Below are positions 28,403 to 45,342 of a DNA stretch of 64,000 nt, piece by piece (position 1 is the stretch's first letter; each line of letters starts with the position of its first letter). Made by a program: the position numbers and the translations under genes. Under the pieces are notes generated by a model that had not been told where the DNA came from, searched no databases, and saw nothing but the letters and a program-made list of their open reading frames with translations. Source of the stretch: a virus; IMG/VR virus record IMGVR_UViG_3300050014_000823, positions 204,773-268,772 of that record; one strand, given 5' to 3'.

Positions 28403-31102
28403 TTATTTCATGTTATGCTTAATTAAAATCTGCACAGCCTCTTTTTTACTCATTCCTGTTGGAACTCTACGATATGTTAGGGTTTCTCTTGCAATTTTAA
28501 TCTGACCTTCGTTTAATTCTTCTTTCTTCTCTTCTTCGGGTTCTTCCTCTTTTTCTTCTGGTTCTTCAACAGGTGCTTCTACAGGACTTTCTGCAGGAGT
28601 TTCCTCTGCTTCTGGTTCTTCGTCACCTTCTACTTCGTCACCAACATTATGAGGTTTAAATCCAAGTAACACATCTGTTGTTGCTTTATCGCCACCTTGA
28701 GCATCTGTTGATGCATTTGCCTGTGCTGAATCTTCAGGTGTTTCTTTGCTTGTATAATACTCTGGGTCTTCTGTAAGATGGTCCAAAACGATTTCCAATG
28801 CGTACATCGGGTCATCGGTATGTTCCATTTCAACTTTCAATCCCATTAATATTTGTTCTTGACTGAATTCCATTGGAGATTTACCTTCACCCTTACCGCC
28901 AGGAATTAATTCACCTACTTCTTCTTTGTCTTGTGCAAGTTGTTCAACATTATCTGTCTCTGGTTCCATTGACATTCCTATTTTATCGAAATCCGGCTCA
29001 ATTGCAGGTATTGGCATACCCTCATCATCAGTACCAATTCCCGGCATTTTACTCATATCTTCTTCTTCATCACCAACTTCGCTTGGACTTGGATTATCGA
29101 TATCTTCAATGCCCTTTTGAGCATTTGGTTCTGCTTCTTCTGCAAACTCTGCAGGTTCTTCTACTGGTTGTGCTATTCCACTATAACTTCTTGCCATATC
29201 TTTTTGAGCAAGTCCCTTTTCACCATATCCCTTTGGAACTTCTGGTAAATTAGAAATGTCGTCATCGCCATACACTTCAGTTTCATTCATGTTCGCCATA
29301 TCATACTGTAAGCCAATATAGCCAAGACGTGAATTCCAAGACATAATATAACCGTCTTTTTCGTAAGTTTGGTCTTCTGTACCATTACCAAGTTCCTGTG
29401 AACCTTGGTGTTGACCAGGATTATGCCATTGTTTAAGGTATTCCATTGCAGCGTCTTTACCTTTAGTATCAAGAATTTCTAATGGCTGATATGCTTCATC
29501 ACCCTGTAAGAAAACAACATCCTCATATTTGTCACGGTCTGTACTTTCATTTATTTTAACTGTTGACACCGGATTTTTCTTTTTCTTCGGATATTTTGAC
29601 TGTGATTTTGGCTTGAAAGTTTTACCCAATTGTTTAAATGGAGAAAATGCATCAGTATTTTCTTTTTTCTTATCCTCTTTTTTCTTCTCGTCTTTCTTCA
29701 CTTCCTTCTTCTCTGCTTCCTGCAAGAAAGGTTCTGCCTCTTTAGGATATGTTCTCGTTTTAGCGGGTTTTTTAACGCCTGCCATCCTATCAAGTTCAGC
29801 CATTACTTCGGGAGTAGTCGGAGAATAATTCGGATTTCTTGTACCGTTTCTTTGTACTAAAGCATCATATGCCTGTAATATTTTGTCTCTTTTTTCTGGA
29901 GATACTTCAGGAACTGGCTCATTGTCAGTAGGTAACACATCATCAACAGTTGGAGTTTCTGGCTCTTGTTGTGGCATATCTTCTGCATTTTCAACATCAT
30001 CTGGATTGTATTCCATTGTATCTACTTCTGAACCATAGCCGGGATTTTCTTCGTCATATTCATTTTCAACAACACCGCCCAATGTCATACCTGCAATAGG
30101 TTTGTCCATTTCCAAAACGGGTTGCATTTTTAATTTCATTGCTGGTTTATCGGTTTCACCTAATCCCAGACTTTTAAGACTATAACCTTCTTCTTTGAGT
30201 CTTTTGTTAACTGCTTTTTTTACGTTTGCAAGCAATTGCTCAAATGTCATACCTTCTCTGATATAATCCCACATAGAATTAACGTCAGCCAAATCATCCC
30301 AACTCATTGGTAACATTTTGTTTGCCAATCCCATTGCAACCTTATAAAGTAAATCTTTATGTAGGTTTGGAACATCTGCCTTTGTTAATTTTCTACCAAG
30401 TTGTTTTATATCGGTAATTTTACCACCAATCGGACTAACACCGCCAATTGGGGGAACAGGAGCAACCTCTTCTTTTACAAATTTGTCGAGTTCCGGAGAT
30501 TTTACTCTTACAGAAGGATTTGTAGGTTTATTGTCTGCGTAATTATGTCCTGTTTGCATTTTATCGAAACTATTTTTGCCAAACGGCATAGTATCGATAA
30601 TATTAATTGCCTCTTGAAGTTCCTCTGCATTTGGTCCTTCTTGACCTTTCACGTCAATATACTTGTCGATAATATCGAATAGTTCGTTTGTATAGTTGCT
30701 GTTGAAGTTCTGTAAAGCATTTTCATCCAACTCAAAAGTTTGTGAACCATTTGCATTGGCATATGAGAATTTCTGTAACTGTACACCTTGAACATTGTAC
30801 ACACCCTGTTGGTCACCATCATTGAATTCTAATTTGAATACGAATGTATATTGGTTTTTATCTTTATCAACACCGTTGATTGAAACTACGCTGTTGTCAT
30901 CAGTCATTTGTACTGTAGTCGTATTGCTACCACCATCATTTATTGTTAACTGACCATTTTTTAATGCCATGAAGCCACGGGTTAAAATTGTTTTAGCATC
31001 GGGTGTACCGAAACCTAAGTCTTCATTTAGCTTAACCTTATTGACTTTCTGAAACACTTCAAGAAGTCTGTCTGTACTGCCAACTGGTTTATATATTCTC
31101 AT
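28403..31102 (-). CDS. Large acidic low-complexity protein, probably virion-internal
   Basis: This 899-aa protein starts MRIYKPVGSTDRLLEVFQ and has LNED near residue 26. An N-terminal folded part (about 30-200: TLTVQ-like beta strands, NVQGVQLQKFSYANANG) is followed by long Pro/Glu/Lys-rich stretches (KKEVKKDEKKKEDKKK near 465) and a very acidic C-terminal part (EETPAESPVEAPVEEPEEKE), ending in a basic helix MSKKEAVQILIKHNMK. The N-terminal peptide resembles that of the next gene, perhaps a common targeting or propeptide signal. Composition recalls T4-like scaffold or internal-head proteins; the exact role is unknown. Confidence 0.5.
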   Translation of the reverse strand: MRIYKPVGSTDRLLEVFQKVNKVKLNEDLGFGTPDAKTILTRGFMALKNGQLTINDGGSNTTTVQMTDDNSVVSINGVDKDKNQYTFVFKLEFNDGDQQGVYNVQGVQLQKFSYANANGSQTFELDENALQNFNSNYTNELFDIIDKYIDVKGQEGPNAEELQEAINIIDTMPFGKNSFDKMQTGHNYADNKPTNPSVRVKSPELDKFVKEEVAPVPPIGGVSPIGGKITDIKQLGRKLTKADVPNLHKDLLYKVAMGLANKMLPMSWDDLADVNSMWDYIREGMTFEQLLANVKKAVNKRLKEEGYSLKSLGLGETDKPAMKLKMQPVLEMDKPIAGMTLGGVVENEYDEENPGYGSEVDTMEYNPDDVENAEDMPQQEPETPTVDDVLPTDNEPVPEVSPEKRDKILQAYDALVQRNGTRNPNYSPTTPEVMAELDRMAGVKKPAKTRTYPKEAEPFLQEAEKKEVKKDEKKKEDKKKENTDAFSPFKQLGKTFKPKSQSKYPKKKKNPVSTVKINESTDRDKYEDVVFLQGDEAYQPLEILDTKGKDAAMEYLKQWHNPGQHQGSQELGNGTEDQTYEKDGYIMSWNSRLGYIGLQYDMANMNETEVYGDDDISNLPEVPKGYGEKGLAQKDMARSYSGIAQPVEEPAEFAEEAEPNAQKGIEDIDNPSPSEVGDEEEDMSKMPGIGTDDEGMPIPAIEPDFDKIGMSMEPETDNVEQLAQDKEEVGELIPGGKGEGKSPMEFSQEQILMGLKVEMEHTDDPMYALEIVLDHLTEDPEYYTSKETPEDSAQANASTDAQGGDKATTDVLLGFKPHNVGDEVEGDEEPEAEETPAESPVEAPVEEPEEKEEEPEEEKKEELNEGQIKIARETLTYRRVPTGMSKKEAVQILIKHNMK

Positions 31103-31113
31103 GTTTATATCTA

Positions 31114-31560
31114 TTATTCGAAAATTATTGGGTTTTTCTGACCGAATTCTCTTAATAAAACACCTGCAAGAGCATTTGCTTCGTTTTCATGCTCACTACC
31201 CGTTTCATTTGAACCATCTTTCAAAACACCCGCTTTACGTTGTTTATCGTGTACTAATTCATGTGCAAGCGTCCTTAAAACGTCTGCTAAATTCCTATTT
31301 GTTGCCACCACTCGCAATTCATTTGTCTTTGGTGTGTACTTACCGAAGGAATGCATTGTTGGTGCTTCAGTTTCATCATACGAAATCACTATGTCTGGCA
31401 TACTTTCACCCAAACCAAGTTTATTCTTAGCAAACTCAACGAACTGATTAATAACCTCTTCCTTCTTCTCCTTTGGGAGAATCGACTCGTTGAGATTATT
31501 AACTCTTCTCATCATTTCAAAGAGTCGTTGTGGACTGCCGTATGCATGAAATACTCTCAC
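31114..31560 (-). CDS. Small HExxH metalloprotease-like protein
   Basis: This 148-aa protein contains a zincin signature: AHELVHDKQRK (His100, Glu101, His104) followed about 20 residues later by EHENEANALAG, where a Glu can be the third zinc ligand. The N-terminal peptide MRVFHAYGSPQRLFEMMRRV with LNES at 23-26 matches that of the 899-aa protein. It has no signal peptide or membrane segment. It may cleave virion or host proteins; prohead processing or peptide-bond hydrolysis during entry are guesses. It is 11 nt from one neighbour and 2 nt from the other, so an operon. Confidence 0.6.
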   Translation of the reverse strand: MRVFHAYGSPQRLFEMMRRVNNLNESILPKEKKEEVINQFVEFAKNKLGLGESMPDIVISYDETEAPTMHSFGKYTPKTNELRVVATNRNLADVLRTLAHELVHDKQRKAGVLKDGSNETGSEHENEANALAGVLLREFGQKNPIIFE

Positions 31561-33467: not shown

Positions 33468-34109
33468 TTATAATATTGTAACTAAATATCTTTTAAGTAA
33501 AGTAAAATTAGGGAGAATTTTATAATATGTCAGGTACGTATCACCGCTTAAATCTTCGTGAGATTTAATTGCCCTATTACATAAACCCAATTTTATTTCA
33601 TCTATACTAATCCGAAAAAAACCATACATATTGAGATTCACACCCCAAATACATTTTTGTTTTGAAATGGCTGTTCCTAACACATATAACATTTCGTCTT
33701 TGTAATTATAAAGCATGTCTATTTCTTTCGGCAAAACATCCATTAAACCCTGTACATCAACGATTTGAAAGAATATTGGGTCTAAATTTACGTATAGGTA
33801 TTTTGGACTGAAATAAAATTGTGGTACGGCTGCGATAAAACTTTCAATGCCTCTGACGTGCGATTGTTTGCTTTCTTCGAAGCTGCATTCCCAATAAAGT
33901 TCATTGCTAACTATGCGTTTTTTCAGAATATCCGCATTCTGAATTATCTGATTGTTGGGGTTTGAAGCCTTCATGAACGACCATCCAACGTATAGTGTAG
34001 GAAGTTTGTCGAGACTGTCATACTCTTGTGGTCCTTTATAGTAGTTAATATAACTGACTTCGGTATGATTTACCAGTTCTTTTTCATAAATAATGTTACC
34101 TATTTTCAT
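33468..34109 (-). CDS. Hypothetical protein, last gene of the sugar operon
   Basis: I do not recognise this 213-aa protein. It begins MKIGNIIYEKELVNHTEVSY and has LPTLYVGWSFMKASNP (about 38) and PKYLYVNLDPIFFQIVDVQG (about 102), with a mixed alpha/beta look and many aromatic residues. There is no signal peptide or membrane helix. It overlaps the hldD-like gene by 14 nt, so it belongs to the sugar operon and may act on the same glycan or on virion decoration. A terminator follows 21 nt after its stop. Confidence 0.65.
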   Translation of the reverse strand: MKIGNIIYEKELVNHTEVSYINYYKGPQEYDSLDKLPTLYVGWSFMKASNPNNQIIQNADILKKRIVSNELYWECSFEESKQSHVRGIESFIAAVPQFYFSPKYLYVNLDPIFFQIVDVQGLMDVLPKEIDMLYNYKDEMLYVLGTAISKQKCIWGVNLNMYGFFRISIDEIKLGLCNRAIKSHEDLSGDTYLTYYKILPNFTLLKRYLVTIL

Positions 34110-35013
34110 TTTTTAGCTTATTTACGTATTTCAAAACACCATCTTCTAACTCATGAAAAGGCTTTTTATAGCCAGCAACCCTCAACTTATTCATCTTAGC
34201 CTCAGTAAAATACTGATACTTGTCTCTGATTTTAATTGGGGTGTCAATATAATTAATAGTTCCGGGATTACCAAGACTTTTAAAAACTGCTTTCGCCAAG
34301 TCATTAAAAGTACGTGCTTTTCCTGTTCCGACATTATAAATACCCGAAAGTGGTTTTTCTGTTGCCATAAATATGCAAACGTCAACAATATCATCCACAT
34401 ATACAAAATCACGTAGCTGTTCACCGTCTTTGTAGTCTGGACGATGTGACTTAAATAATTGAATTTTTGCAGGACCTGAACAAAACTCAATTTGGTGATA
34501 TAAATGTAAAACAACAGAAGCCATTTTACCTTTATCGGCTTCTCCGTAGCCGTAAACATTAAAAAATTTTAGTCCGTACCAATAAGGTGGTTGTTTTTCC
34601 TGGACTTCTGCCCAAACATCGAACTGTTGCTTTGACCAACCGTAGGGATTAAGTGGTTGTAACTTAATGATATCCTTCTCGTCATTAAAACCTAATTCTC
34701 CGTCACCATAGGTTGCTGCACTTGAAGCATAAACCAAAGGGATTTGGTATTCTGCGCAGATATTCCAGATAAATATACTTGCGCCAACATTATATTCGTC
34801 AAAAAGATTTCTGTCCATAACAGTAGTATCGGTAATAGCACCTAAGTGATAAATAACATCTATATCTTTGGCGTGAATTAAAAGCCATTCATATATCGAC
34901 TGCAGACTTTCGGTACGGGTATCAAGTACCACAACACCAATTGCTCCACGTCTTTGCAATTCTGCAACGAGATTCTGACCAATAAAACCTAAACCACCTG
35001 TTACTACTATCAT
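34096..35013 (-). CDS. hldD: ADP-L-glycero-D-manno-heptose 6-epimerase (HldD-like)
   Basis: This 305-aa short-chain dehydrogenase has the NAD-binding TGGLGFIGQNL (residues 5-15) and the catalytic Tyr/Lys in NPYGWSKQQFD (about 140). HldD-specific sequence is clear: LKFFNVYGYGE, SHRPDYKDGEQLRDFVYVDD (about 200-220). In bacteria this enzyme converts ADP-D,D-heptose to ADP-L,D-heptose, the donor for LPS-type heptosylation. Length is normal. It overlaps the adenylyltransferase gene by 4 nt, so the two are coupled. Confidence 0.85.
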   Translation of the reverse strand: MIVVTGGLGFIGQNLVAELQRRGAIGVVVLDTRTESLQSIYEWLLIHAKDIDVIYHLGAITDTTVMDRNLFDEYNVGASIFIWNICAEYQIPLVYASSAATYGDGELGFNDEKDIIKLQPLNPYGWSKQQFDVWAEVQEKQPPYWYGLKFFNVYGYGEADKGKMASVVLHLYHQIEFCSGPAKIQLFKSHRPDYKDGEQLRDFVYVDDIVDVCIFMATEKPLSGIYNVGTGKARTFNDLAKAVFKSLGNPGTINYIDTPIKIRDKYQYFTEAKMNKLRVAGYKKPFHELEDGVLKYVNKLKNENR

Positions 35014-35438
35014 AAATTTTTTATTTTCTCAATAATATTTGTGCTTGACCTTTTATCTGTTGGGTAAAAAACCACACCAAACCTTGAATTTTCACTGCCG
35101 ATTACCTCTTTATTTCTATATTGGTCACCAACAACCATATAATCAATATCTAACTTATCGACTAAGTTTCTCAACTCATCATCTGTGTCAAAGATAAATA
35201 CTTGATGAACCATTCGCAAATTTCGCATTATTGTTATTCTTGTGTTAATGTCATTAATGGGTCGTTTATCACCCTTTAACCTCTTAACACGCTCATCTGT
35301 ATCAAGTCCAACATATAGCTTATTTTCCGCATCGAGAACTGGATATACATCACCGGGTTGATAGTTCTTTGCATACCAAAGTAAGTCTATGTGTCCCGTA
35401 TGTAAGATGTCAAAGCACCCGTTTACCCAGATATTCAT
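35010..35438 (-). CDS. Heptose-1-phosphate adenylyltransferase (HldE C-terminal domain-like)
   Basis: This 142-aa cytidylyltransferase-like protein has the signature GCFDILHTGHIDLL (residues 7-20) with the nucleotide-binding HxGH, and the second motif DKRSSTNIIEKI near the end. It resembles the stand-alone C-terminal domain of HldE (RfaE domain II), which joins heptose-1-phosphate to AMP. Here the kinase domain is a separate gene at 36867. A glycerol-3-phosphate cytidylyltransferase-like activity is possible, but the HldD, kinase and phosphatase neighbours favour heptose. Confidence 0.75.
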   Translation of the reverse strand: MNIWVNGCFDILHTGHIDLLWYAKNYQPGDVYPVLDAENKLYVGLDTDERVKRLKGDKRPINDINTRITIMRNLRMVHQVFIFDTDDELRNLVDKLDIDYMVVGDQYRNKEVIGSENSRFGVVFYPTDKRSSTNIIEKIKNL

Positions 35439-35722
35439 ATTTCTTCGATTCTTTTAGTTTTGTCATCAATAAGTAGGTCGTATGAGGGTTTAGTTTGGGT
35501 GTCAAGTCTGTGAAATTTACAACCCCAATCAGCAAGTTGTTTCGCTGTTAATTCTTTCCAATCTATACCAGTATTTCCACCCCTGGCGGTCCAATAGGTA
35601 ATTGAATGTCCTTCGTCAAAGAGTTTGTTGATTTTCTCAATCATATCATATCTTGGCTTGGCATTTGGATATCCCTCACTACTGTCACAGATTGTTCCGT
35701 CTATGTCTACTAAAATTTTCAT
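35435..35722 (-). CDS. Small HAD phosphatase, possibly heptose-bisphosphate phosphatase
   Basis: This 95-aa HAD-superfamily protein has the catalytic DIDGTICDS (residues 6-14, nucleophile Asp and acid Asp), a Thr motif in YWTARGGNTG (about 43), and DLLIDDKTK near the end. It lacks a cap. It is shorter than GmhB (about 190), so it may be a minimal version. In ADP-heptose synthesis a GmhB-type enzyme removes the 7-phosphate between kinase and adenylyltransferase. Position between those genes supports that, but capsule-type HAD proteins of this size exist too. Confidence 0.6.
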   Translation of the reverse strand: MKILVDIDGTICDSSEGYPNAKPRYDMIEKINKLFDEGHSITYWTARGGNTGIDWKELTAKQLADWGCKFHRLDTQTKPSYDLLIDDKTKRIEEI

Positions 35723-36870
35723 TGCTGGCTATCTCCTTTCTCTATTCTTATTGAATCTTCCGGAAAATCGGTTGTTGACACTTCAACTATAATCGAATTT
35801 GTAATCGCCATTAACTGATGTTCTACGTTTTGTTTAATTTCTATTTTGTCTCCTCTTTTAAAAAGAAAATAATCGAAAAAATCACCGTTTTCACTATTCA
35901 TAACACATTCCAAACTACCCCACATACAAAACCACAATTCTTGTTTGAGAATATGTTTATGCCAACTAAATTTTTTTCCTTTGAAAAATACTAAATATTT
36001 TAAACAATATTTTTCGTTATTTACTAAGTGAATTTCCAACCCCCACCCCTTCTTAACTACCTTCGAGTTCGAATTTAATCCAATAAAAACTTGTGTCCAG
36101 AATTCTCGATTGAAATTTGTAATATTATGACACTTTTTACATAATGTAATTAAATTATCTTCACCATTATTTTTTTTATTATAATCAACGTGATGTACAT
36201 GTAAGTCTTCGGTTTCGCCACACAATTGACAACAATTACCGTCCCTCTCTTTTATTCTGTCTTTTAATCCTTTATTAAATCCTCTCGCATATTTATGGTC
36301 TAACCTAACATTATCTTCAATTTCTTTATTATTTCCATTATTTCTGGAACAATTTAGTGAACAAAATACCACATTCTGTCCCTTATGTAAATTTCTCCTT
36401 GTGTATTCAAAAACTTTACCACATCTTTTACACGTAGCCTTTTCTTTATCTTCAATCCACGCAGGATTATTTTCATTTAGTCTTTGTTGACTCAAGTACA
36501 CGCTTAGACATTCTCTTGAACACACAATTCTTTCGCCATAATGCTTAAATTCATTACCACAAACCTCACAATTACTCGTTGTTCTTATATCGGTCTTTGG
36601 TCTTACTGAATCTAACTGACATGTTTTTGAACAATATTGTCTGTCCTTCTCCCAAGTTGGTGCATTAAATTCTTTCTGACATTGTTTACAAACCAATGTT
36701 GATTTACGATTTTCATCAGTTTGTTTTTTATTTCGATTTCGCTTACACTCATAACAAATATCACTTTTAACATATCTCTTATCGACATGTCCATATTTAC
36801 AAGGTTCACCAGTAAAGTACCACTTCTGACCGATTTCTTTAGCTTCTTCCCTTGTAATTATCTCAATCAT
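35719..36870 (-). CDS. HNH homing endonuclease fused in frame to a sugar cupin
   Basis: This 383-aa fusion has an N-terminal part with four or more zinc-ribbon CxxC pairs (CYECKRNRNKK, CKQCQKEF, CEVCGNEF, CKRCGKVF) and an HNH core near 205-260 (KERDGNCCQLCG, HVHHVDYNKKNN, LITLCKKCHN). From about residue 270 a cupin begins: VVKKGWGLEIHLVNNEKYC, SWHKHILKQELW and HQLMAITNS, like phosphomannose- or sugar-isomerase cupins. The cupin normally starts with its own Met near KVVKKGWG, absent here. So the endonuclease supplies the start, and the cupin is expressed only as a fusion. Confidence 0.8.
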   Translation of the reverse strand: MIEIITREEAKEIGQKWYFTGEPCKYGHVDKRYVKSDICYECKRNRNKKQTDENRKSTLVCKQCQKEFNAPTWEKDRQYCSKTCQLDSVRPKTDIRTTSNCEVCGNEFKHYGERIVCSRECLSVYLSQQRLNENNPAWIEDKEKATCKRCGKVFEYTRRNLHKGQNVVFCSLNCSRNNGNNKEIEDNVRLDHKYARGFNKGLKDRIKERDGNCCQLCGETEDLHVHHVDYNKKNNGEDNLITLCKKCHNITNFNREFWTQVFIGLNSNSKVVKKGWGLEIHLVNNEKYCLKYLVFFKGKKFSWHKHILKQELWFCMWGSLECVMNSENGDFFDYFLFKRGDKIEIKQNVEHQLMAITNSIIVEVSTTDFPEDSIRIEKGDSQQ

Positions 36871-37655
36871 AATTTTGCTTTATTTAAATCCACAACAACC
36901 ACACCCTTTTGAGTAACAACCCAAGCTGCGCACTTGTTTGCAAACTGAATTGCTTTGGAAATATCTTTATTTTTCATATAATCTGCAACCAAAGCCGCAA
37001 GGAAAGTATCTCCTGCACCACTTAAATCTCTGACTGGGTGTTCATCGTCTTCATTTAAAATCTCTTGATAATCAAAAATACCTACTTTATTGTGTGAATA
37101 CATTGCCCCCTTTTTACCGAGAGTTACAACTAATATATTACTGTATTGAAAGTCCAACCATTGTTTATTTTTCAGAAATTCTTTTTCGTTTATTTTAACA
37201 CAAAAAACCTTATCACACCAATGACCAAAATCTTTCTTCGTGTCCATAAAAACCAACGGATGTGAATTTGCAATGTGTTCTATTACTTCCTCACTAATAA
37301 AACCCTTATCATAGTCACTAATAACAATTGCTTCGTATTGACTATAATCAAACGCCATTTGCCTATCATATATGTTTGGTCCAACAAATATCATGTCGTT
37401 TTCATCAACCCGAAGTAACATCTGATTTGAAACTTCATCAACATATCGGGTTTTTGTTATGCCACTATATGTGTGGATATCTGCATCAATACCTAATGCA
37501 AGTAAGTTTGCATAGACATTCACAGCCATACCACCATTAGACTTATCACCCAAAGGTTTAAAAACGGGTACTGGTGCTTCAGGACTTAACCTGTCGCATT
37601 TTCCATAGCGAAACACATCTTTACAACCGTCACCGATTACTAATACTTTACTCAC
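36867..37655 (-). CDS. Heptose-7-phosphate kinase (HldE N-terminal domain-like, PfkB family)
   Basis: This 262-aa PfkB/ribokinase-type kinase has the typical start VLVIGDGCKDVFRYGKCDRL, SPEAPVPVFKP and the ATP/anion-hole motif LSGAGDTFLAAL (about 212-223) with catalytic Asp. Sequence order and LSPEAPVPVF match the HldE kinase domain, which phosphorylates heptose-7-phosphate at C1. The bacterial enzyme is usually fused to the adenylyltransferase domain; here the two are separate genes about 1.4 kb apart. It is slightly shorter than the usual kinase domain (about 310). Confidence 0.75.
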   Translation of the reverse strand: MSKVLVIGDGCKDVFRYGKCDRLSPEAPVPVFKPLGDKSNGGMAVNVYANLLALGIDADIHTYSGITKTRYVDEVSNQMLLRVDENDMIFVGPNIYDRQMAFDYSQYEAIVISDYDKGFISEEVIEHIANSHPLVFMDTKKDFGHWCDKVFCVKINEKEFLKNKQWLDFQYSNILVVTLGKKGAMYSHNKVGIFDYQEILNEDDEHPVRDLSGAGDTFLAALVADYMKNKDISKAIQFANKCAAWVVTQKGVVVVDLNKAKL

Positions 37656-38683
37656 TGTAATCTCTTTAAAATCTCAATTATTTTTTCCGCAGCGTGACCA
37701 TCACCAAATGGGCACTCTACATTTATTTCATAATCATTATGTACTTCGTCAAAAAAGTACTTTAAGTCTTCTGGTCTTGTTACCAAAAGACCATTTACAC
37801 CAATTGCTTCCGGACGTTCTGTAACAATTCGGCAAGTTAAACATATTTTATTGAAAAAACAAGATTCTTCCTGAAGTCCACCACTATCAGTTATTACCAT
37901 ACGACACTGAACCAGTAATTCAAGCATATCCTCATATGGCAATGGGTCAATAACTACAACATTTTTTAATAAATGCTTCCATTTCTGCACATTTGGATTT
38001 GGATGCATTGGTAATATGAAAGCATATTGTGGATATTCCGTTGCAAGTTTTTCCAACTCAGTAAACCATCTGTCCATCCAATGATGATTTTCACGCCTAT
38101 GTAATGTAACCAAAATTTTGTTGGTATATATGCATTTATCTTTATATAACAAGAGATTATCAATGACCGTATTACCAACAACATAAACATCATCCAAAAT
38201 TTTTTCTCCCGCAAGATTTCTTGCTGCCCAATCAGTTGGACATAGGTGAATATCTGCAATTTGTGATATTATTCTCCTGTTGACTTCTTCGGGATATGGG
38301 TTTTCTTTGTCGTATGTTCGGAGTCCGGCTTCCAGGTGTATTACTTTAATACCATGATGAAATGCAGACAGTGCTACCGCAAATGCCGATGTGGTATCGC
38401 CTTGGACCATTACATATGCATCAACGAATTTACCTGTTTCTGTGTTGAGTTTACAGAAAGACCGAAAAAATTCCCACAACTGTCCTGTTATCGAACTAAC
38501 AATCGAATCCAGTCTGTTGGGTTTATTCTCGATATTAAGAATCCAATCATATTCGAATTCTCCTATGTGAACCTGTTGTCCAGTGAATAGTATGTTAAAC
38601 TCAAAATTATTCTTCCTTAATTCATCGATAATCGGCTTAAGTTTAATGTATTCTGGTCGTGTGCCGTATGCTAATAATATCAT
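37652..38683 (-). CDS. wecB: UDP-GlcNAc 2-epimerase (WecB-like)
   Basis: This 343-aa non-hydrolysing UDP-GlcNAc 2-epimerase (GT-B fold) carries the family features in order: GTRPEYIKLKP (residues 7-17), QGDTTSAFAVAL, HLEAGLRTYDKENPYPEE with RRIISQIAD, the C-terminal VITDSGGLQEE and RIVTERPEA. It makes UDP-ManNAc for surface glycans. Length is normal. It shares 4-nt overlaps with the kinase gene and the next glycosyltransferase, so the pathway may add ManNAc-derived units to the same glycan. Confidence 0.85.
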   Translation of the reverse strand: MILLAYGTRPEYIKLKPIIDELRKNNFEFNILFTGQQVHIGEFEYDWILNIENKPNRLDSIVSSITGQLWEFFRSFCKLNTETGKFVDAYVMVQGDTTSAFAVALSAFHHGIKVIHLEAGLRTYDKENPYPEEVNRRIISQIADIHLCPTDWAARNLAGEKILDDVYVVGNTVIDNLLLYKDKCIYTNKILVTLHRRENHHWMDRWFTELEKLATEYPQYAFILPMHPNPNVQKWKHLLKNVVVIDPLPYEDMLELLVQCRMVITDSGGLQEESCFFNKICLTCRIVTERPEAIGVNGLLVTRPEDLKYFFDEVHNDYEINVECPFGDGHAAEKIIEILKRLQ

Positions 38684-39447
38684 TGTAAATCTTTTAATAC
38701 TTCAGGTAATTCTTCGTTAAACTCAACTGCCTTACACCAAGCAGGTGGATTAACAGGATGCATATTAACCATGTCTGGTGTCCATTTAAGCCATATATTA
38801 TTAAACCACGCATCTACATCAAAATCATTATGATGACCCCAAGTTTTTAACTTTTCTCTGAGTTCACTATCGGTTAATACGTATGATGCATGATAACAAA
38901 TGGCATTTGGAATATTAATGGTTGATATCCCCGTAGGTTTTCTTTTTCTTTCGAACCTATTTCCTCTGTTTAGGTTAATAAATATTTGGGGGTGACCAAC
39001 AATTTGACTGCCTAAATTAGCTACTGTTATATGTTTAAATGATTTCCAGAAACTTATCCACCCACAAGTATAAATGTCGTAGCCGGGATGATTAACAATA
39101 AACATTTTCATCTGCTCAAAGCCATCGTGAAAATAAAATTCGTCTGCATCATGAATCATAAGATAGTCAATACCATCTTCTTTGGCTCTGTCAACACATG
39201 CATTCCTTTGTGCTTCTTCGGTAAGCCAATCACCTAAAATCAAGACAATTTTATCAGCAAATCTCGATTCTCTTATTATTTTCAAGTCAAAAGAATTTAC
39301 ATATTCTTGTCTTGCGGTGGGGTTATATCCCCAAGGCTTATCGCTATATGCAATATAAATTTTATCTACATGTGGATATGCATTTTCAATATTTCTCATA
39401 ATCCACTTGTCTTGACCGAACAATACTATGTGTGTTGCAAATTTCAT
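38680..39447 (-). CDS. GT-A-fold glycosyltransferase
   Basis: This 255-aa protein has a GT-A-like design: IVLFGQDKWIMRNIENAYPHVD at the start, and a DxD-type metal motif in DYLMIHDADEFYFHDG (about 92-107) with acidic residues for the nucleotide sugar. FDVDAWFNN and HASYVLTDSELREKL lie in the acceptor half. It resembles GT2/GT17-type transferases, but I cannot name donor or acceptor. It overlaps wecB by 4 nt. Confidence 0.65.
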   Translation of the reverse strand: MKFATHIVLFGQDKWIMRNIENAYPHVDKIYIAYSDKPWGYNPTARQEYVNSFDLKIIRESRFADKIVLILGDWLTEEAQRNACVDRAKEDGIDYLMIHDADEFYFHDGFEQMKMFIVNHPGYDIYTCGWISFWKSFKHITVANLGSQIVGHPQIFINLNRGNRFERKRKPTGISTINIPNAICYHASYVLTDSELREKLKTWGHHNDFDVDAWFNNIWLKWTPDMVNMHPVNPPAWCKAVEFNEELPEVLKDLQ

Positions 39448-40070
39448 TTCTTTTTAGCTATTAAACATCCACAATCGGTTACAGAATCTTTAAATCCCTG
39501 AAAACCATCAAACATATGTTTCATTTCATCCCACGCACGCCAAACCCCGCATTGGTCTGGTTTACTTCTTTGCCAATAATCGTGCGTCCAAACATAATAT
39601 TTATTTTGCATGTTATATTTAAGTATTAACTCAATTTCTTTTCTTACGTGCTCTTCTGTGTGGTCACCATCCTGTATAATTAAATCGAAATCAAATGGTT
39701 CTGACAATATTTTCAGCGAATCGTCAAGAACACGTTTAAAATTATTTGAATGTAACTTGTCATATTCAAGTCTTTCTTGAATGTCAAGCAATGTGACTTC
39801 ACCGCAACCATTCATTTCAACCGCCTGCAATATGTGATTAGAACTTCTACCAAGAAAATTACCGATTTCCAATATTCTTTTTGGCTTTAAAATGCGCATC
39901 AACACAAATATTGACTTGCCCTCACTTTCCCATATGCTTCCTGCAGGTTCTTCGGGATAGCCACCATATAACGACTCATCATAATAACCACAAAAATCCG
40001 TAAGATTAACTCCCGTTAGTTTTTCAAACCCAATAAAATACGTCTTTATAAAGTCTTCCCTTTTATCCAT
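39444..40070 (-). CDS. Class I SAM-dependent methyltransferase (Methyltransf_24-like)
   Basis: This 208-aa protein has a Rossmann methyltransferase core: RILEIGNFLGRSSNHIL (motif I, about 70-86), VTLLDIQER (motif II) and FDLIIQDGDHTEEHV (motif IV region). It resembles sugar or cephalosporin-hydroxylase-like methyltransferases of the Methyltransf_24 type. The frame extends to TTG at 40079; I chose the ATG at 40070, which overlaps the upstream stop by 8 nt. It probably methylates a sugar of the glycan; substrate not predictable. Confidence 0.7.
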   Translation of the reverse strand: MDKREDFIKTYFIGFEKLTGVNLTDFCGYYDESLYGGYPEEPAGSIWESEGKSIFVLMRILKPKRILEIGNFLGRSSNHILQAVEMNGCGEVTLLDIQERLEYDKLHSNNFKRVLDDSLKILSEPFDFDLIIQDGDHTEEHVRKEIELILKYNMQNKYYVWTHDYWQRSKPDQCGVWRAWDEMKHMFDGFQGFKDSVTDCGCLIAKKK

Positions 40071-40626
40071 TTTTTTCAAACATAAAAAATTTTGCTGAAG
40101 TCAATAAAAAATTATCAACCTCTTCTATTAATTTAAAATCTTTACGATTCTCTTCCACCCAATCAGTAAACTTGCGATGAATGACATGTGGTGCACTACT
40201 ATCGTAGCTATTAAAATTTGACGAAAATATTAACACGTATTTCTTTGACCCATCAAACAATCTGGTCAAATATTTTTCATATTCCTCTTGAGAAAGAATG
40301 TGATATACTACGTCTAAGGATATACACAAATCTGCTTGGGGCAAATCCGACATTAATGAACAAAAATTCATGGCTTTATTGTTCTTAAACTTTTCGTGGC
40401 ATAAATAAAGTGCATATGAAGATATGTCATAACCCATATAACTATCAAAACCCTTTAACAGACTAATTTGATTACCATCACCACACCCAAAGTCCGATAT
40501 TGTTTTAATTCCGAACTTCGTGATATAATTATTAATCACAGTCGCTTTATGGTCGGCAGTTTCGCCATACGACCCATTACCCGAATTACCGCCTGCTCTA
40601 TATCTCTCTTCCCAATAATTATTCAT
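40063..40626 (-). CDS. Class I SAM-dependent methyltransferase
   Basis: This 187-aa protein starts MNNYWEERYRAGGNSGNGSY, a common start in small methyltransferases. It has motif I ISDFGCGDGNQISLL (about 42-56), an acidic ribose-binding residue in YMGYDISSYAL, and ADLCISLDVVYHI (motif IV). It probably modifies a sugar or glycan end group. It lies in the glycosyltransferase run of the operon, directly before a second methyltransferase. Confidence 0.75.
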   Translation of the reverse strand: MNNYWEERYRAGGNSGNGSYGETADHKATVINNYITKFGIKTISDFGCGDGNQISLLKGFDSYMGYDISSYALYLCHEKFKNNKAMNFCSLMSDLPQADLCISLDVVYHILSQEEYEKYLTRLFDGSKKYVLIFSSNFNSYDSSAPHVIHRKFTDWVEENRKDFKLIEEVDNFLLTSAKFFMFEKNG

Positions 40627-40636
40627 AATTAATTTA

Positions 40637-41290
40637 TTAATCGCTCCACCCTCTTAAACCTGCGTTTAGATGAATATACCCAACTTGTGGTGGCATTTCA
40701 ACATTATATAGCATAGATTCACTGTGTACATATTTAATTATATTTGATTTTAAGTTTGTTGTTGCAATTTTTTTATAAAACCAAAGTTCGGGACAAATAC
40801 TACCATTTTTATATTTGTCAATTTCCGATTCACTTTTTAATAGCGAAATTTTAGTAAACAATGCTTCAACCGCCCTTCTATTCATAAATATCACTTCCAT
40901 CATTGCATATTCATTGCCATACCACACGGGGTTTCTATATACTAAATCACATTTATTTTCGAAAACACTTGTTATATGGTTCATAACAACATCAATAGAC
41001 TTTGGATTTATTCTGACATCATCGTGTGAAAAAATTAAAACATCGAAATCTGTTTCCAATGACATATTACATGACAACATCAGTCCATTAACACATCCAA
41101 TTTTATGTTGGGGTGTTTCCATGTAATATTTAATACTTAGGTTATTTTCTTGACTAAAAAACTCATCATTTTTATAACTATTACACGCAATAAACTCTTG
41201 TGCGTCAGGAAAAAAACTTCTTTCAATATTTATTGTTTCCTTTAACGTTTTAAATCTATTATAAACATTATGTGCAAAAACTATTTTCAT
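40637..41290 (-). CDS. GT-A-fold glycosyltransferase
   Basis: This 217-aa protein begins MKIVFAHNVYNRFKTLKETI and has an acidic metal-binding motif FDVLIFSHDDVRINPKS (about 82-98) and a central HKIGCVNGLMLSCN typical of donor-site glycine loops. It is smaller than usual (about 250-300). It shows no membrane anchor. Activity is inferred from fold motif and context; sugar specificity unknown. Confidence 0.6.
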   Translation of the reverse strand: MKIVFAHNVYNRFKTLKETINIERSFFPDAQEFIACNSYKNDEFFSQENNLSIKYYMETPQHKIGCVNGLMLSCNMSLETDFDVLIFSHDDVRINPKSIDVVMNHITSVFENKCDLVYRNPVWYGNEYAMMEVIFMNRRAVEALFTKISLLKSESEIDKYKNGSICPELWFYKKIATTNLKSNIIKYVHSESMLYNVEMPPQVGYIHLNAGLRGWSD

Positions 41291-41299
41291 CTTACTAAT

Positions 41300-42028
41300 T
41301 TACCATATACAAACTTTATTTAATGTGTCAGCACCACGCAAATACCCTCTTGTTGGACCAAGACTCATCATTGAATCTAATGTCGAACCTGCGTCCAGAT
41401 AAGTGTTGTTGGGGGAAGACTTAAAACATTCCATGATTAGAATGTTCGAAAACGGACCTGCACAGAAGAGAAACAAATGATTTTCAATTTTTTTCTCTTC
41501 GATATATTTTTTCATCTTACCAACCAACTCAAAATCTTGCATCCACGCATTAGTACCAACGTAAAACGTCTGTACTATTTTACCTGCAAAGGGCAAGTGA
41601 TTAATAACTGCCTTGTTGTTTACTACCATAACAACATTATAATTGTTAAACTCAGGAATTATTGTTTTCACATAGTTGGGATAGTTTGCATTGACAAATA
41701 TATTACCCCATGTCAGATGCTCATCGTCCTGTCCTGTTAGTGCTTTTAATTTTTCGTGTTTCTCGTTACCAACACAACATCTACATGCAATTCCAACATA
41801 ATAATTGTCTGCCTTGTATTGTGCAGATTCAAGTAATTTTTCCCTGAAGTATCCGTGGTCTGGTTGATTTGGGTCATAAATAAACTCACCGTTTAATTTT
41901 TGCCTTAAGTCAATGAATTCGTTGAAAAGAATAATCATTTCACCGTCATTGTTTCTTGAAACAGCAAAAGGTATGTGATTTTTTATCTTTTCTTGAAACT
42001 TTATAAAATCTCCACCAAATGTTTTCAT
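41300..42028 (-). CDS. GT-D-type (DUF1792-like) glycosyltransferase
   Basis: This 242-aa protein has the GT-D hallmark near the start, PFAVSRNNDGEMIILFNEF (about 22-40), equivalent to the R-x-GDGE metal-binding motif of streptococcal GT-D enzymes. The C-terminal FLFCAGPFSNILIMECF and TYLDAGSTLDSM (about 200-225) match the conserved GT-D end. The family transfers hexoses in surface glycan assembly. It would be one of several transferases acting in series here. Confidence 0.65.
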   Translation of the reverse strand: MKTFGGDFIKFQEKIKNHIPFAVSRNNDGEMIILFNEFIDLRQKLNGEFIYDPNQPDHGYFREKLLESAQYKADNYYVGIACRCCVGNEKHEKLKALTGQDDEHLTWGNIFVNANYPNYVKTIIPEFNNYNVVMVVNNKAVINHLPFAGKIVQTFYVGTNAWMQDFELVGKMKKYIEEKKIENHLFLFCAGPFSNILIMECFKSSPNNTYLDAGSTLDSMMSLGPTRGYLRGADTLNKVCIW

Positions 42029-42029
42029 A

Positions 42030-42764
42030 TCATTTAATATTATTTACAGTTTTCCAACCATTATTTATACAATGTACACAAATCTCACCACGTAAATCCA
42101 GGTGATTTCCAATTCTCCATGAAGCATTTGCATCACTGCCAACCTCATTACCTGTTCGAAAATCCGAACTCCAGAGATTCTGATTATTATCTGGATGTGG
42201 TGGAACAAATGTATTAATGTTGCCGTACTTTTGTGCTAAGTAAGAAAATGTAATATCTTCACCATTATCCCAAGAATATGGCTTTTCATACCACATATAT
42301 TTTGCCCATTCTTGTCTAAAAAACCAAGCATGTCCAACTAAATCAACACGTTCAACTTTATTGGAGTGTCCACCATTCCAACCGAACTTATGATGAGGAT
42401 AATACCCTTTACAGTCAACAATTACACCACTACCACCAAGTATACCGTTGCTTTCAGGTTTTTCAATTGTTTCTACACAATTTTTAAACCAGTCCTTCTG
42501 TGGAAGTATATCATCATCAAACATTGCAACGAACTTTGTTTTAAGCATTGGTAGTATGGAAAATCTACCCCAAAATTTAGTGTTCCAGTTACATGCATAT
42601 GTTCGTATATCTTTATCAACAGGAAAATATTGTGCAACATCTGTTTTATTGTACCAAACATGAATGTTTTCGCTTTTAATTTCAACTGACTGTGCCTTTA
42701 CTGCTTGAATTTGTCTTTCGAGCATATAGGGTCTTTTATATACATTTAATACAACACTAATCAT
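42030..42764 (-). CDS. GT2-like glycosyltransferase
   Basis: This 244-aa GT-A transferase begins ISVVLNVYKRPYMLERQIQA, the typical nucleotide-binding start. It has the metal motif KFVAMFDDDILPQKDWF (about 75-92), and a catalytic-base-like YSWDNGEDITFSYLA (about 172). Donor sugar unknown. It ends a run of GT genes read from 45342; it overlaps the previous gene by 4 nt. Confidence 0.75.
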   Translation of the reverse strand: MISVVLNVYKRPYMLERQIQAVKAQSVEIKSENIHVWYNKTDVAQYFPVDKDIRTYACNWNTKFWGRFSILPMLKTKFVAMFDDDILPQKDWFKNCVETIEKPESNGILGGSGVIVDCKGYYPHHKFGWNGGHSNKVERVDLVGHAWFFRQEWAKYMWYEKPYSWDNGEDITFSYLAQKYGNINTFVPPHPDNNQNLWSSDFRTGNEVGSDANASWRIGNHLDLRGEICVHCINNGWKTVNNIK

Positions 42765-43732
42765 AATTTTTCAATATATTTTTGAGTATAAACACCGCCA
42801 CCCCTTCTTGAGTCTGCATGAAGTTGTGAATCATCATTGCCGTCATGATAAACCATAGAATATTGTGTTCTGAAAATCCAACAACTCATTTCTTTAATTG
42901 CATCGTTTATTTGATTCCACGCACGCACAGGTGTTCCTGGTTTACTCACCGCAACAGCATCAACGGGTTTCATCTTATATTCCATGTGTTTAATAACAGC
43001 ATCGTCTATTAGTGCAATTCCATCCACAAAATCTTTTCTCTGCCACCATTGTTCGTGCTCAGTTATTTTTTTAAATGACCATAAATGTGGTGCAATTGCC
43101 ATAATTCTGCCATTTTCTGCCTTTTTACTAAAAAACATATCCACAACCGCATCCAAGAATCCTTTAGAAAGTATAAAATCGTCATCCATCTGTAAAACAA
43201 CATGACAAGTAATATTCTTTAAAAATTCCCACATCTGATTATAACAATACCAGTGCAACACCTTTCCGTTGGGGGTTTTATTTTCAATGTATGTAAGATT
43301 TGAAAACTCATTTATTAAACTACCATATCTCGTATCAGTTGAACCGTCATTGAGAAGTATTATTTTTATTGTATATTTTGTTGGTTGCTCGTGAAATTGT
43401 TGTATTAATCTCCGAACCTTTTCATATCTATTGTGTGACGGTATGCAAATAACTACGTCATAATCAACAAATGCTTTTTTTTCATATATTCTAAAGCCAC
43501 TTGCGCCATTTTCAGCACGTAAAGCAGTACGTTCAGAATTATTTAATCGACTCACATCAATATATGTGTTCTGTTTATCTTGTAAATAGACATCAGCACG
43601 TTTTCTATTTCTAATTTCATCCAAATCATCCATTGCTTTATTTCCTCTTTTATCGAGAAATAATAATTTCTGATTTCGTAATTCGATTTTCTTCTCGATT
43701 AACCTCTTTCTCGAAATTTTTTGCCTTTTCAT
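42761..43732 (-). CDS. GT2-like glycosyltransferase with basic N-terminal extension
   Basis: This 323-aa protein has about 85 residues of basic extension (KRQKISRKRLIEKKIELRNQ) before a GT-A core: VVICIPSHNRYEKVRRLIQQ (about 93), KIILLNDGSTD and HVVLQMDDDFILSKGF (DxD-like). The ATG at 43732 overlaps the upstream stop by one base (TAATG); a TTG two codons earlier is possible. The basic extension might contact nucleic acid or an acidic surface, but that is a guess. Confidence 0.7.
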   Translation of the reverse strand: MKRQKISRKRLIEKKIELRNQKLLFLDKRGNKAMDDLDEIRNRKRADVYLQDKQNTYIDVSRLNNSERTALRAENGASGFRIYEKKAFVDYDVVICIPSHNRYEKVRRLIQQFHEQPTKYTIKIILLNDGSTDTRYGSLINEFSNLTYIENKTPNGKVLHWYCYNQMWEFLKNITCHVVLQMDDDFILSKGFLDAVVDMFFSKKAENGRIMAIAPHLWSFKKITEHEQWWQRKDFVDGIALIDDAVIKHMEYKMKPVDAVAVSKPGTPVRAWNQINDAIKEMSCWIFRTQYSMVYHDGNDDSQLHADSRRGGGVYTQKYIEKL

Positions 43733-45342
43733 TACCAACTTTCAGCTATAACTTCCTCATATAGTGTAAATACTTTATTGGCAGAAAAGTCCGAGTGATA
43801 TTTTTCCAAGTCCTGTGGAACTTCCTGTAATTCCTTATTTTGAATGTTTCCTTGGTCATCCACAACATATATCCAACCTGGTTTTCCACATAAAAATCCC
43901 TCAATGGTTGTTCTGCCTTTAAAAATTCCTGCAGTATAGTCACACTTCTTAATGTATTCTTCGACATTCTGCTTAACCCCAAGATATTTCACATGGTCGC
44001 CAACGAGAATATTAGCATACCCGCCATTATCCGCACCGATTATCTGTAATAATTGACCATTCGTTCTGGTCATTTCAACTAAGTCGAGTAAAATGTTTTT
44101 TCTTAAATGGTCAAGTGTACCAATAAACAGTACAATCTCTTTGGGATTCTTAACAGGCGTATAGTTTGTATTAAACCTCTTAGTATCGAATGGATTGTCA
44201 ATTGTGACAATCTTATCAGCCTCAATACCGTAAGACCTAATATAATCGGTGATGCTATCACGAATACTTATGTATCTCGCAATTCTTGGATTGATAATTG
44301 GTTCTTCGAAGGTAGGTATGACTTCGCTTCTGACATGCATAACTGCAGGAGTATTCGGGTATAAGCCTAACATAAGTTCCCCGATAGGTTTGTGGTTAAT
44401 GTGAATGATATCGAATTCCTGCTCATTTTTAATAAAATGAAATTTACCGTCTTGGTCCAGTACATAATTGGGTAAATTTATGTAACTGCAAACTCTTACA
44501 CCATTTGCAAGTGCTTTCTTGTGTAATGGTTCGCCAACAACTTGAGAAATTATAGTAACATCACAACCCTGTTTAACAAGTTCCTTTGAAAGTTCGTAAT
44601 TTGACATTTCAGAACCCGTGTAGTTTTTAAAGAACTGACAGCAGAGCAGTACTTTTAATCTACCCTCAGAAACATGACGAATAGGTAAATTATATTCACT
44701 GGCGAACTTTATCCTATTTCTGTCCCAATCTGGATTAGTTTGACCCATTGACTTGTGTAATACTCTTATTGAGGCGGTTACACCAATATTAACATCTTTC
44801 AGATAGTTATCTACACAAAATGGTAAGTCATAAAAGTGAAATAAACCATAATTCTCGTTGAAATTTTTAACTATTTGGTCGGGGTCAACACCCATGAATA
44901 AACCATCAATAATTATAACTGGTTTTACTCCGTTGAATTGTGGTGAATACTCACTTACCCATGTACTCATGCCGTTTGTGTGTTCAACAATACCATACAT
45001 TTTGCTTCTGTCTTCCCACCACATGCCAGATGCCGGGAGAAATGTTGTCCCCGCAAGTCCAATAATTGCGTAGTCGGTATGATTAAATTGGTTTAACAAT
45101 ACTTTTCCCCAGTTTTTTGTCTTATATACCATGTCGTTATGACAAAAAACAAACACACAATCTTTTTCTGCGTGGGTTTTTAGTGCATCGTTATAAATCT
45201 GTGGCAAACCAAACTGTCCAAAGTTCGGATAACAAATGGTTTTATGTTGAACTCCAATAGTCTCTTTTATGTGTGATATGAATTTATTATTTTCTTCCTC
45301 AGACAAATGTGAGGAAAACACTACGACAATATTATTTTTCAT
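43732..45342 (-). CDS. Two-domain glycosyltransferase (GT-A + GT-B fusion)
   Basis: This 536-aa protein joins two transferase folds. Residues about 1-225 form a GT-A-like domain (CVFVFCHNDMVYKTKNWGKV near 66, IIGLAGTTFLPASG). Residues 230-536 form a GT4-type GT-B domain: LKVLLCCQFFKNYTGSEMSN, IVLFIGTLDHLRKNILLDLV (about 410) and GIFKGRTTIEGFLCGKPG, the typical donor-site Glu region. It could add two sugars in sequence. The gene is the first glycosyltransferase of the operon and overlaps the KilA-N gene by 11 nt. Confidence 0.72.
   Translation of the reverse strand: MKNNIVVVFSSHLSEEENNKFISHIKETIGVQHKTICYPNFGQFGLPQIYNDALKTHAEKDCVFVFCHNDMVYKTKNWGKVLLNQFNHTDYAIIGLAGTTFLPASGMWWEDRSKMYGIVEHTNGMSTWVSEYSPQFNGVKPVIIIDGLFMGVDPDQIVKNFNENYGLFHFYDLPFCVDNYLKDVNIGVTASIRVLHKSMGQTNPDWDRNRIKFASEYNLPIRHVSEGRLKVLLCCQFFKNYTGSEMSNYELSKELVKQGCDVTIISQVVGEPLHKKALANGVRVCSYINLPNYVLDQDGKFHFIKNEQEFDIIHINHKPIGELMLGLYPNTPAVMHVRSEVIPTFEEPIINPRIARYISIRDSITDYIRSYGIEADKIVTIDNPFDTKRFNTNYTPVKNPKEIVLFIGTLDHLRKNILLDLVEMTRTNGQLLQIIGADNGGYANILVGDHVKYLGVKQNVEEYIKKCDYTAGIFKGRTTIEGFLCGKPGWIYVVDDQGNIQNKELQEVPQDLEKYHSDFSANKVFTLYEEVIAESW

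Follow-up and report, generated by a model that had tools for sequence, protein, structure and literature searches.

In bacteria, ADP-heptose can be made from sedoheptulose-7-phosphate, a product of the pentose phosphate pathway, by separate GmhA, HldA, GmhB, HldC and HldD enzymes, and GmhA is the only sedoheptulose-7-phosphate isomerase that we know of for this pathway. Stand-alone kinases and adenylyltransferases also occur in bacteria, examples being HldA of Burkholderia cenocepacia and HldC of B. pseudomallei, so the split as such is nothing unusual, and among phages, too, it has precedents. In the cyanophages P-SSM2, S-SM2, S-SSM7, P-TIM68 and S-CAM1, a nucleotidyltransferase (NT), a kinase (KIN), a small HAD protein, a cupin (CUP) and an epimerase (EPI) occur together as the T4-GC 304-308 block. 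The accessible text of Sullivan et al. 2010 (PMC3037559) reports that T4-GC 304, 305, 307 and 308 co-occur and raises a possible functional linkage, and that of Iyer et al. 2021 (PMC7824862) includes cupin sugar isomerases, PfkB kinases and HIGH nucleotidyltransferases among the sugar genes of jumbo cyanophages; within what is accessible of these two papers, neither a heptose pathway nor a GmhA role for the cupin is proposed. Here we describe a block of this kind in a 64,000-nucleotide stretch of viral DNA (the window), which comprises bases 204773-268772 of the linear IMG/VR record IMGVR_UViG_3300050014_000823, a record of 299,144 bases that may be incomplete.

The original prediction for the window held that HldD, a stand-alone adenylyltransferase, a small HAD phosphatase and a stand-alone kinase cover the steps from heptose-7-phosphate to ADP-L,D-heptose, and that no GmhA-type isomerase is present. 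Profile matches confirmed the four enzymes at the minus-strand positions given for them, and this pathway assignment is still the best reading, but the span contains a fifth gene that had been overlooked, an HNH-cupin fusion at 35719-36870. The absence of GmhA also stood: no PF13580 protein was found at E<=10 in the whole 299,144-base record by a search that was positive in 14 of 14 control genomes. The missing isomerase is nevertheless probably present as the cupin, the sole isomerase candidate in the block. We think it rather probable that the five genes account for the whole conversion of sedoheptulose-7-phosphate to ADP-L,D-heptose, one gene to a step, with the cupin in place of GmhA, and the match of five genes to five steps is our main argument. 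Compared with the separate bacterial enzymes, four of the five steps are matched in the window by a homologous or like-for-like enzyme, the differences being the lack of a GmhA of the sugar isomerase (SIS) fold and a HAD that is not GmhB. The window block belongs to a five-gene set that is widespread among viruses, and in this set the cupin most likely takes the place of GmhA.

In the proposed pathway, the cupin would turn host sedoheptulose-7-phosphate into D-glycero-D-manno-heptose-7-phosphate, carrying out the GmhA step with an unrelated, Mn-type cupin fold. The kinase would then phosphorylate C1, the minimal HAD would take off the 7-phosphate, the nucleotidyltransferase would add AMP and HldD would epimerise C6. 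The GmhA reaction, in which a 2-ketose becomes an aldose of manno configuration, is chemically like those of D-lyxose/D-mannose isomerases. Each substrate, the order of the steps, the use of the product and, above all, the reaction of the cupin are what we infer here; gene content, operon overlaps, homology, linkage, the absence of GmhA and the conserved catalytic residues were observed directly.

The five genes belong to a single minus-strand operon in which neighbours overlap start to stop by about 4 bases. In the order of transcription they are KIN, a short PfkB-type sugar kinase and predicted D-glycero-D-manno-heptose-7-phosphate 1-kinase in the HldA role (36867..37655; PF00294, TIGR02198, PHROG 8133 with E 1e-72); the HNH-cupin fusion, a 383-aa open reading frame between kinase and HAD; HAD, a minimal cap-less phosphatase predicted to act as heptose-1,7-bisphosphate 7-phosphatase in the GmhB role (35435..35722; PHROG 1238, E 8e-29); NT, a stand-alone nucleotidyltransferase and predicted heptose-1-phosphate adenylyltransferase in the HldC role (35010..35438; PF01467, TIGR02199, PHROG 7878); and EPI, the ADP-heptose 6-epimerase HldD (34096..35013; TIGR02197), after which comes a conserved final gene, o213. 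All five families of the cyanophage T4-GC 304-308 block (PHROGs 7878, 8133, 1238, 7851 and 540) are thus present and linked in the window. Homologues of the window block lie in our cyanophage loci L027-L030, and in P-SSM2, S-SM2, P-TIM68 and S-CAM1 the five families are adjacent or near one another. The window differs from these cyanophages in that its HldD is a clear equivalog and its cupin bears an HNH domain. In two of them, a transketolase-like gene and a zinc alcohol dehydrogenase gene adjoin the kinase block (L028:5408-7630 in S-SM2 and L029:6689-8913 in P-TIM68), and their products could supply or modify a sugar precursor.

The epimerase is the enzyme that passes its curated cut-off, with 329.8 bits against the HldD equivalog model TIGR02197 (cut-off 274.6). 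Its best solved relative is E. coli HldD (1eq2), whose Y140 and K178, which we take to be the catalytic bases, align with Y124 and K161, conserved throughout the family. The kinase and the adenylyltransferase are present as had been claimed, and their nearest solved relatives are HldA and, presumably, HldC. Among curated models KIN matches TIGR02198 best, its best solved relative is HldA 4e84 (94 bits, against 49 for the runner-up), and it carries the HldA motif RLSPEAPVPV as well as GAGDT. For NT, the best single-domain solved relative is 5x9q (108 bits), presumably HldC of Burkholderia pseudomallei although the entry itself is titled 'putative cytidylyltransferase'. A transferase using CTP and glycerol phosphate, which had been named as an alternative, is disfavoured: TagD scores 78 bits, and the TagD model TIGR01518 gives 48 bits (cut-off 165), below the 91 bits obtained with TIGR02199. 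The predicted phosphatase is a small HAD, as had been stated, of 95 residues and without a cap, with a complete set of motifs (DxDGT, T/SAR, K and DDK) that are near-invariant. Its best solved relative is 9iqw, a 'capsule biosynthesis protein' (70 bits); it has no GmhB family match and sits in a different, minimal HAD family (PHROG 1238).

Database names for two of these families look wrong. RefSeq and PHROG call the HAD a 'phosphoheptose isomerase' and the cupin a 'cysteine dioxygenase' (NC_006883.2 239311-239992, locus L027; PHROG 1238 and PHROG 7851). The first name was rejected given the HAD motifs and the lack of a SIS domain in four cyanophage genomes that carry the HAD. The second was likewise rejected: with the cupin model, one cysteine dioxygenase entry came only far down the Foldseek list, at rank 44, and none of the Pfam families reported bears that name.

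An AlphaFold2 model of the cupin, built with 59 sequences (pLDDT 90.8, pTM 0.83), retrieved D-lyxose isomerase at Foldseek ranks 1-5 (E 6e-8 to 1e-7) and again at rank 10. In the D-lyxose isomerase TsLI, bound sugars touch K62, H75, H77, K86, E88, H143, E156 and D163, manganese is held by H75, H77, E88 and H143, and activity is lost when the equivalent of K86, E156 or D163 is mutated (PMC8378251). By alignments and spacing, the eight sugar-contacting residues map to K30, H43, H45, K48, E50, H90, E102 and D111 of the cupin (numbering of alignment A9), although the D163 to D111 assignment is approximate, as the cupin family has two acidic positions there. All eight are invariant in 59 of 59 phage cupins. 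L-ribose isomerase 5avp aligns with the cupin without gaps through CxKL...HxHxxKxE, and the lysine of this motif is absent from the oxalate decarboxylases and quercetinases shown in the alignment. The cupin fold, the metal ligands, K-x-E and C-x-K are common to the phage cupins and to the D-lyxose/D-mannose and L-ribose isomerases (7nzo, 2y0o, 5avp). The phage cupins are shorter and match these enzymes weakly in sequence and, unlike them, have an invariant DSxR-type tail, a candidate phosphate site; their predicted substrate is a phosphorylated one. Among 17 cupin members, the Lyx_isomer family PF07385 matches 14 (E<=1, best 4e-6), the window member being without a match; sub-threshold matches were obtained to PF01050 (MannoseP_isomer, 12 of the 17) and to the phosphomannose isomerase (PMI) model TIGR01479 and WbuC models. 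The fold class and the type of active site are better supported than the substrate.

In the window, the cupin domain (35719..36087; PHROG 7851, E 9e-31) forms residues 262-383 of the fusion, in frame with an HNH homing-endonuclease-like part of residues 1 to about 260 (36091..36870; PF01844, PHROG 1271 and others). No ATG, GTG or TTG lies in frame at the start of the cupin domain, so the predicted isomerase is probably translated as part of the larger protein. In this fused form the cupin retains its metal and lysine residues, and comparison with two relatives indicates purifying selection (pN/pS 0.14-0.18, against 0.30-0.39 for the kinase). The same fusion is found at L003:1701-2906, L017:8759-9907 and L242:4792-5976. 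The last of these, in the phage of locus L024, is at a different place in the genome, so the fusion may be mobile as a whole and, through homing, may displace native cupin alleles. Mobile elements target this operon repeatedly: in four relatives (L003:3144-4022, L005:9162-10103, L006:5493-6512 and L009:2192-3133) the small HAD continues in frame into a C-terminal GIY-YIG-like endonuclease, which takes the place of the final HAD residues. The L003 nucleotidyltransferase has a C-terminal methyltransferase-like extension, and the cupin has such a fusion at its own C-terminus in other phages (L070:7953-9023, L072:619-1689).

The split pathway had been described for one phage. The block is not peculiar to that phage: it is the T4-GC 304-308 set of cyanophages, and many other viral contigs share it. 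The cupin is encoded by more than 500 viral contigs. To measure linkage, loci were gathered by one gene each, the other genes were counted in the flanks, and loci above 80% identity in the chosen gene were removed. Among 62 NT-selected viral loci, in 31 distinct gene orders, KIN is present in 56, CUP in 49, HAD in 37 and GmhA in none; EPI is counted in 42, an upper bound for HldD because its profile also catches other epimerases of the short-chain dehydrogenase/reductase (SDR) type. CUP is present in 13 of 20 kinase-selected loci, where GmhA was again absent, and 34 cupin-selected loci include 21 with the kinase and 22 with the nucleotidyltransferase. For the kinase- and cupin-selected sets, the presence of GmhA was judged from genome-level PF13580 searches instead of profile scores; these found no such protein in four complete block-bearing cyanophages, 25 kinase-selected and 44 cupin-bearing viral records. 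Conversely, 49 GmhA-selected viral loci, found with an alignment query because single-sequence queries gave few and mostly contig-edge matches, contain the kinase 11 times and the cupin never, and the cupin frequencies of the NT and GmhA sets differ with p 9e-20. The sequence distances of kinase, cupin and NT correlate over 86 loci (r 0.30-0.47, permutation p 0.0005). Several records with a local gap hold the partner elsewhere: the kinase was found in six that are locally cupin-only (L095, L110, L054, L081, L089, L102), and the locally kinase-only phage of L023 has an HNH-cupin and a nucleotidyltransferase elsewhere in its record.

Other phages follow the same logic with the canonical enzyme. 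In six GmhA contigs, one more gene comes after kinase, GmhA and nucleotidyltransferase, in that order; in the three that were read out (L172, L179, L168), it encodes a canonical GmhB-type HAD. When such KIN-GmhA-NT-GmhB operons (L172, L179, L216, L168) are compared with the kinase-cupin-HAD-NT-HldD order of the window, the cupin stands at the place of GmhA. These operons differ from the window in having canonical GmhA and GmhB, no cupin and a longer kinase (about 300 aa, against 262 aa). The block is not restricted to phages, since two contigs of Parcubacteria metagenome-assembled genomes (L113, L114) carry the cupin near a phage-type kinase, in L113 also beside a nucleotidyltransferase, and in both genomes the search for a stand-alone GmhA was negative.

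Several observations weigh against a complete heptose route. KIN and NT fall below the curated heptose cut-offs (122 bits against 345 for TIGR02198 and 91 against 181.5 for TIGR02199), which leave their membership of the heptose families unproved. A profile of the 59 cupins searched against the PDB favours oxalate decarboxylase-type cupins (E 9e-7) over D-lyxose isomerase (2e-4), so that sequence alone would say just 'metal cupin'; in Foldseek, quercetinase and CapF are close behind D-lyxose isomerase, with a small margin over quercetinase, and the loop before KxE is shorter than in the D-lyxose isomerases 2y0o and TsLI. Some records, for example L049 (203 kb), L090 (164 kb) and L035 (70 kb), have the cupin without KIN. 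Conversely, KIN and o213 are retained in five records of related phages in which no cupin was found (L011, L019, L020, L021, L026), and in three of these (L011, L019, L026) no nucleotidyltransferase was found either. IMG/VR records may be fragments.

Host enzymes could also supply the isomer. ADP-heptose would then be made from heptose-7-phosphate provided by a host GmhA, gmhA being usual in Gram-negative hosts, and the cupin would act otherwise, for example as a ketoisomerase or epimerase on a nucleotide sugar. The structural closeness of the CapF cupin, the PF14667 matches in 6 of 17 cupin members and the loci with KIN and NT but no cupin fit this explanation, yet we consider it unlikely. 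No RmlC- or FdtA-type match to the cupin was among the families reported, the block has no 4,6-dehydratase to make a keto substrate, and cupin and GmhA occur together in no representative locus. In the NT-selected set the cupin (49 of 62) is more constant than HldD (42 of 62), which suggests a role ahead of the last step or independent of it. Cyanobacterial lipopolysaccharide (LPS) is moreover reported in a review (PMC4390846) to lack heptose and 3-deoxy-D-manno-octulosonic acid (KDO); cyanophages would thus hardly find a heptose pathway to draw on in the host and, if they make ADP-heptose, would need every step.

Somewhat less likely still is that the block activates another sugar, a hexose, a pentose or a different heptose, in which case the cupin would resemble type II phosphomannose isomerase or be an isomerase of pentose phosphates, and that sugar would also be the substrate of kinase, HAD and NT. 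Of 17 cupin members, 12 do match the ManC PMI domain below threshold, the window member across the whole domain, KIN and NT score below the heptose cut-offs as noted, and the EPI of other lineages is a more distant SDR (31-37% identity between the cyanophage and window proteins). In the window lineage, however, EPI exceeds the HldD equivalog cut-off and KIN has the HldA motif, and in the GDP-mannose route a mutase and a ManC-type pyrophosphorylase stand where the block has a PfkB kinase and a phosphatase. That the genes are remnants or stuffer DNA without present function, an idea raised for cyanophage LPS clusters in the accessible text of Sullivan et al. 2010 (PMC3037559), is very improbable. 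The operon has been entered more than once by homing endonucleases (HNH on the cupin and, in relatives, GIY-YIG on the HAD), but all reading frames of the block are intact with short overlaps, pN/pS against relatives is 0.14-0.39 across the block, the catalytic residues are invariant, and the set has been re-assembled in 31 orders.

For the ADP-heptose pathway with the cupin as isomerase, a wider formulation is that in phages and some Parcubacteria GmhA has been replaced, non-orthologously, by a metal isomerase of the cupin fold, giving a complete, compact, virus-borne route from sedoheptulose-7-phosphate to ADP-heptose that could bring heptose to hosts without it, such as cyanobacteria; we put the chances of this at about even. 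No report of a cupin in the GmhA role was found in the open literature. If the proposal is true, a common phage gene block that has had no assigned function would turn into a five-step pathway, the two wrong database names could be put right, and one could test whether heptose is added by phages to hosts that do not make it, such as cyanobacteria. Surface heptose matters for phage receptors and for superinfection exclusion.

Upstream in the operon, which has few-base overlaps from here through o213, lies a WecB-type UDP-GlcNAc 2-epimerase gene (37652..38683, minus strand; TIGR00236, 257 bits, above the cut-off of 210), preceded by genes for glycosyltransferases (GT2, GT4 and weaker GT2-like) and methyltransferases (38680..45342, minus strand; PF00535, PF13712, PF13439, PF13578, PF08241), which are likely users and modifiers of activated sugars. 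The activated heptose would probably feed these GT2/GT4 enzymes, WecB would supply UDP-ManNAc, and a surface or virion glycan would be built. The original prediction, too, had suggested that the product could decorate virions or remodel host LPS, and had pointed to ADP-heptose as an innate immune ligand in animals. A GT9-like transferase had also been placed at position 1002 of the window, but this is not supported: the 303-aa open reading frame there has no Pfam match (best E 0.083, SWI2_SNF2) and only one weak PHROG match, without assigned function. At the other end of the operon, o213 (33468..34109, minus strand) had no Pfam match, and its AlphaFold2 model (pLDDT 85, with five models that disagree) gave no Foldseek match at E<0.001. 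The gene, about 60% identical among loci, closes the operon in every KIN-selected jumbo-phage locus (L003-L026), even the kinase-only ones; in L023, L024, L019 and L026, o213 directly follows the kinase and the other four genes are not between them. Beyond the operon, a 148-aa protein at 31114-31560 has a HELVH zinc-protease-like motif and shares an N-terminal stretch with the adjoining 899-aa protein (28403-31102).

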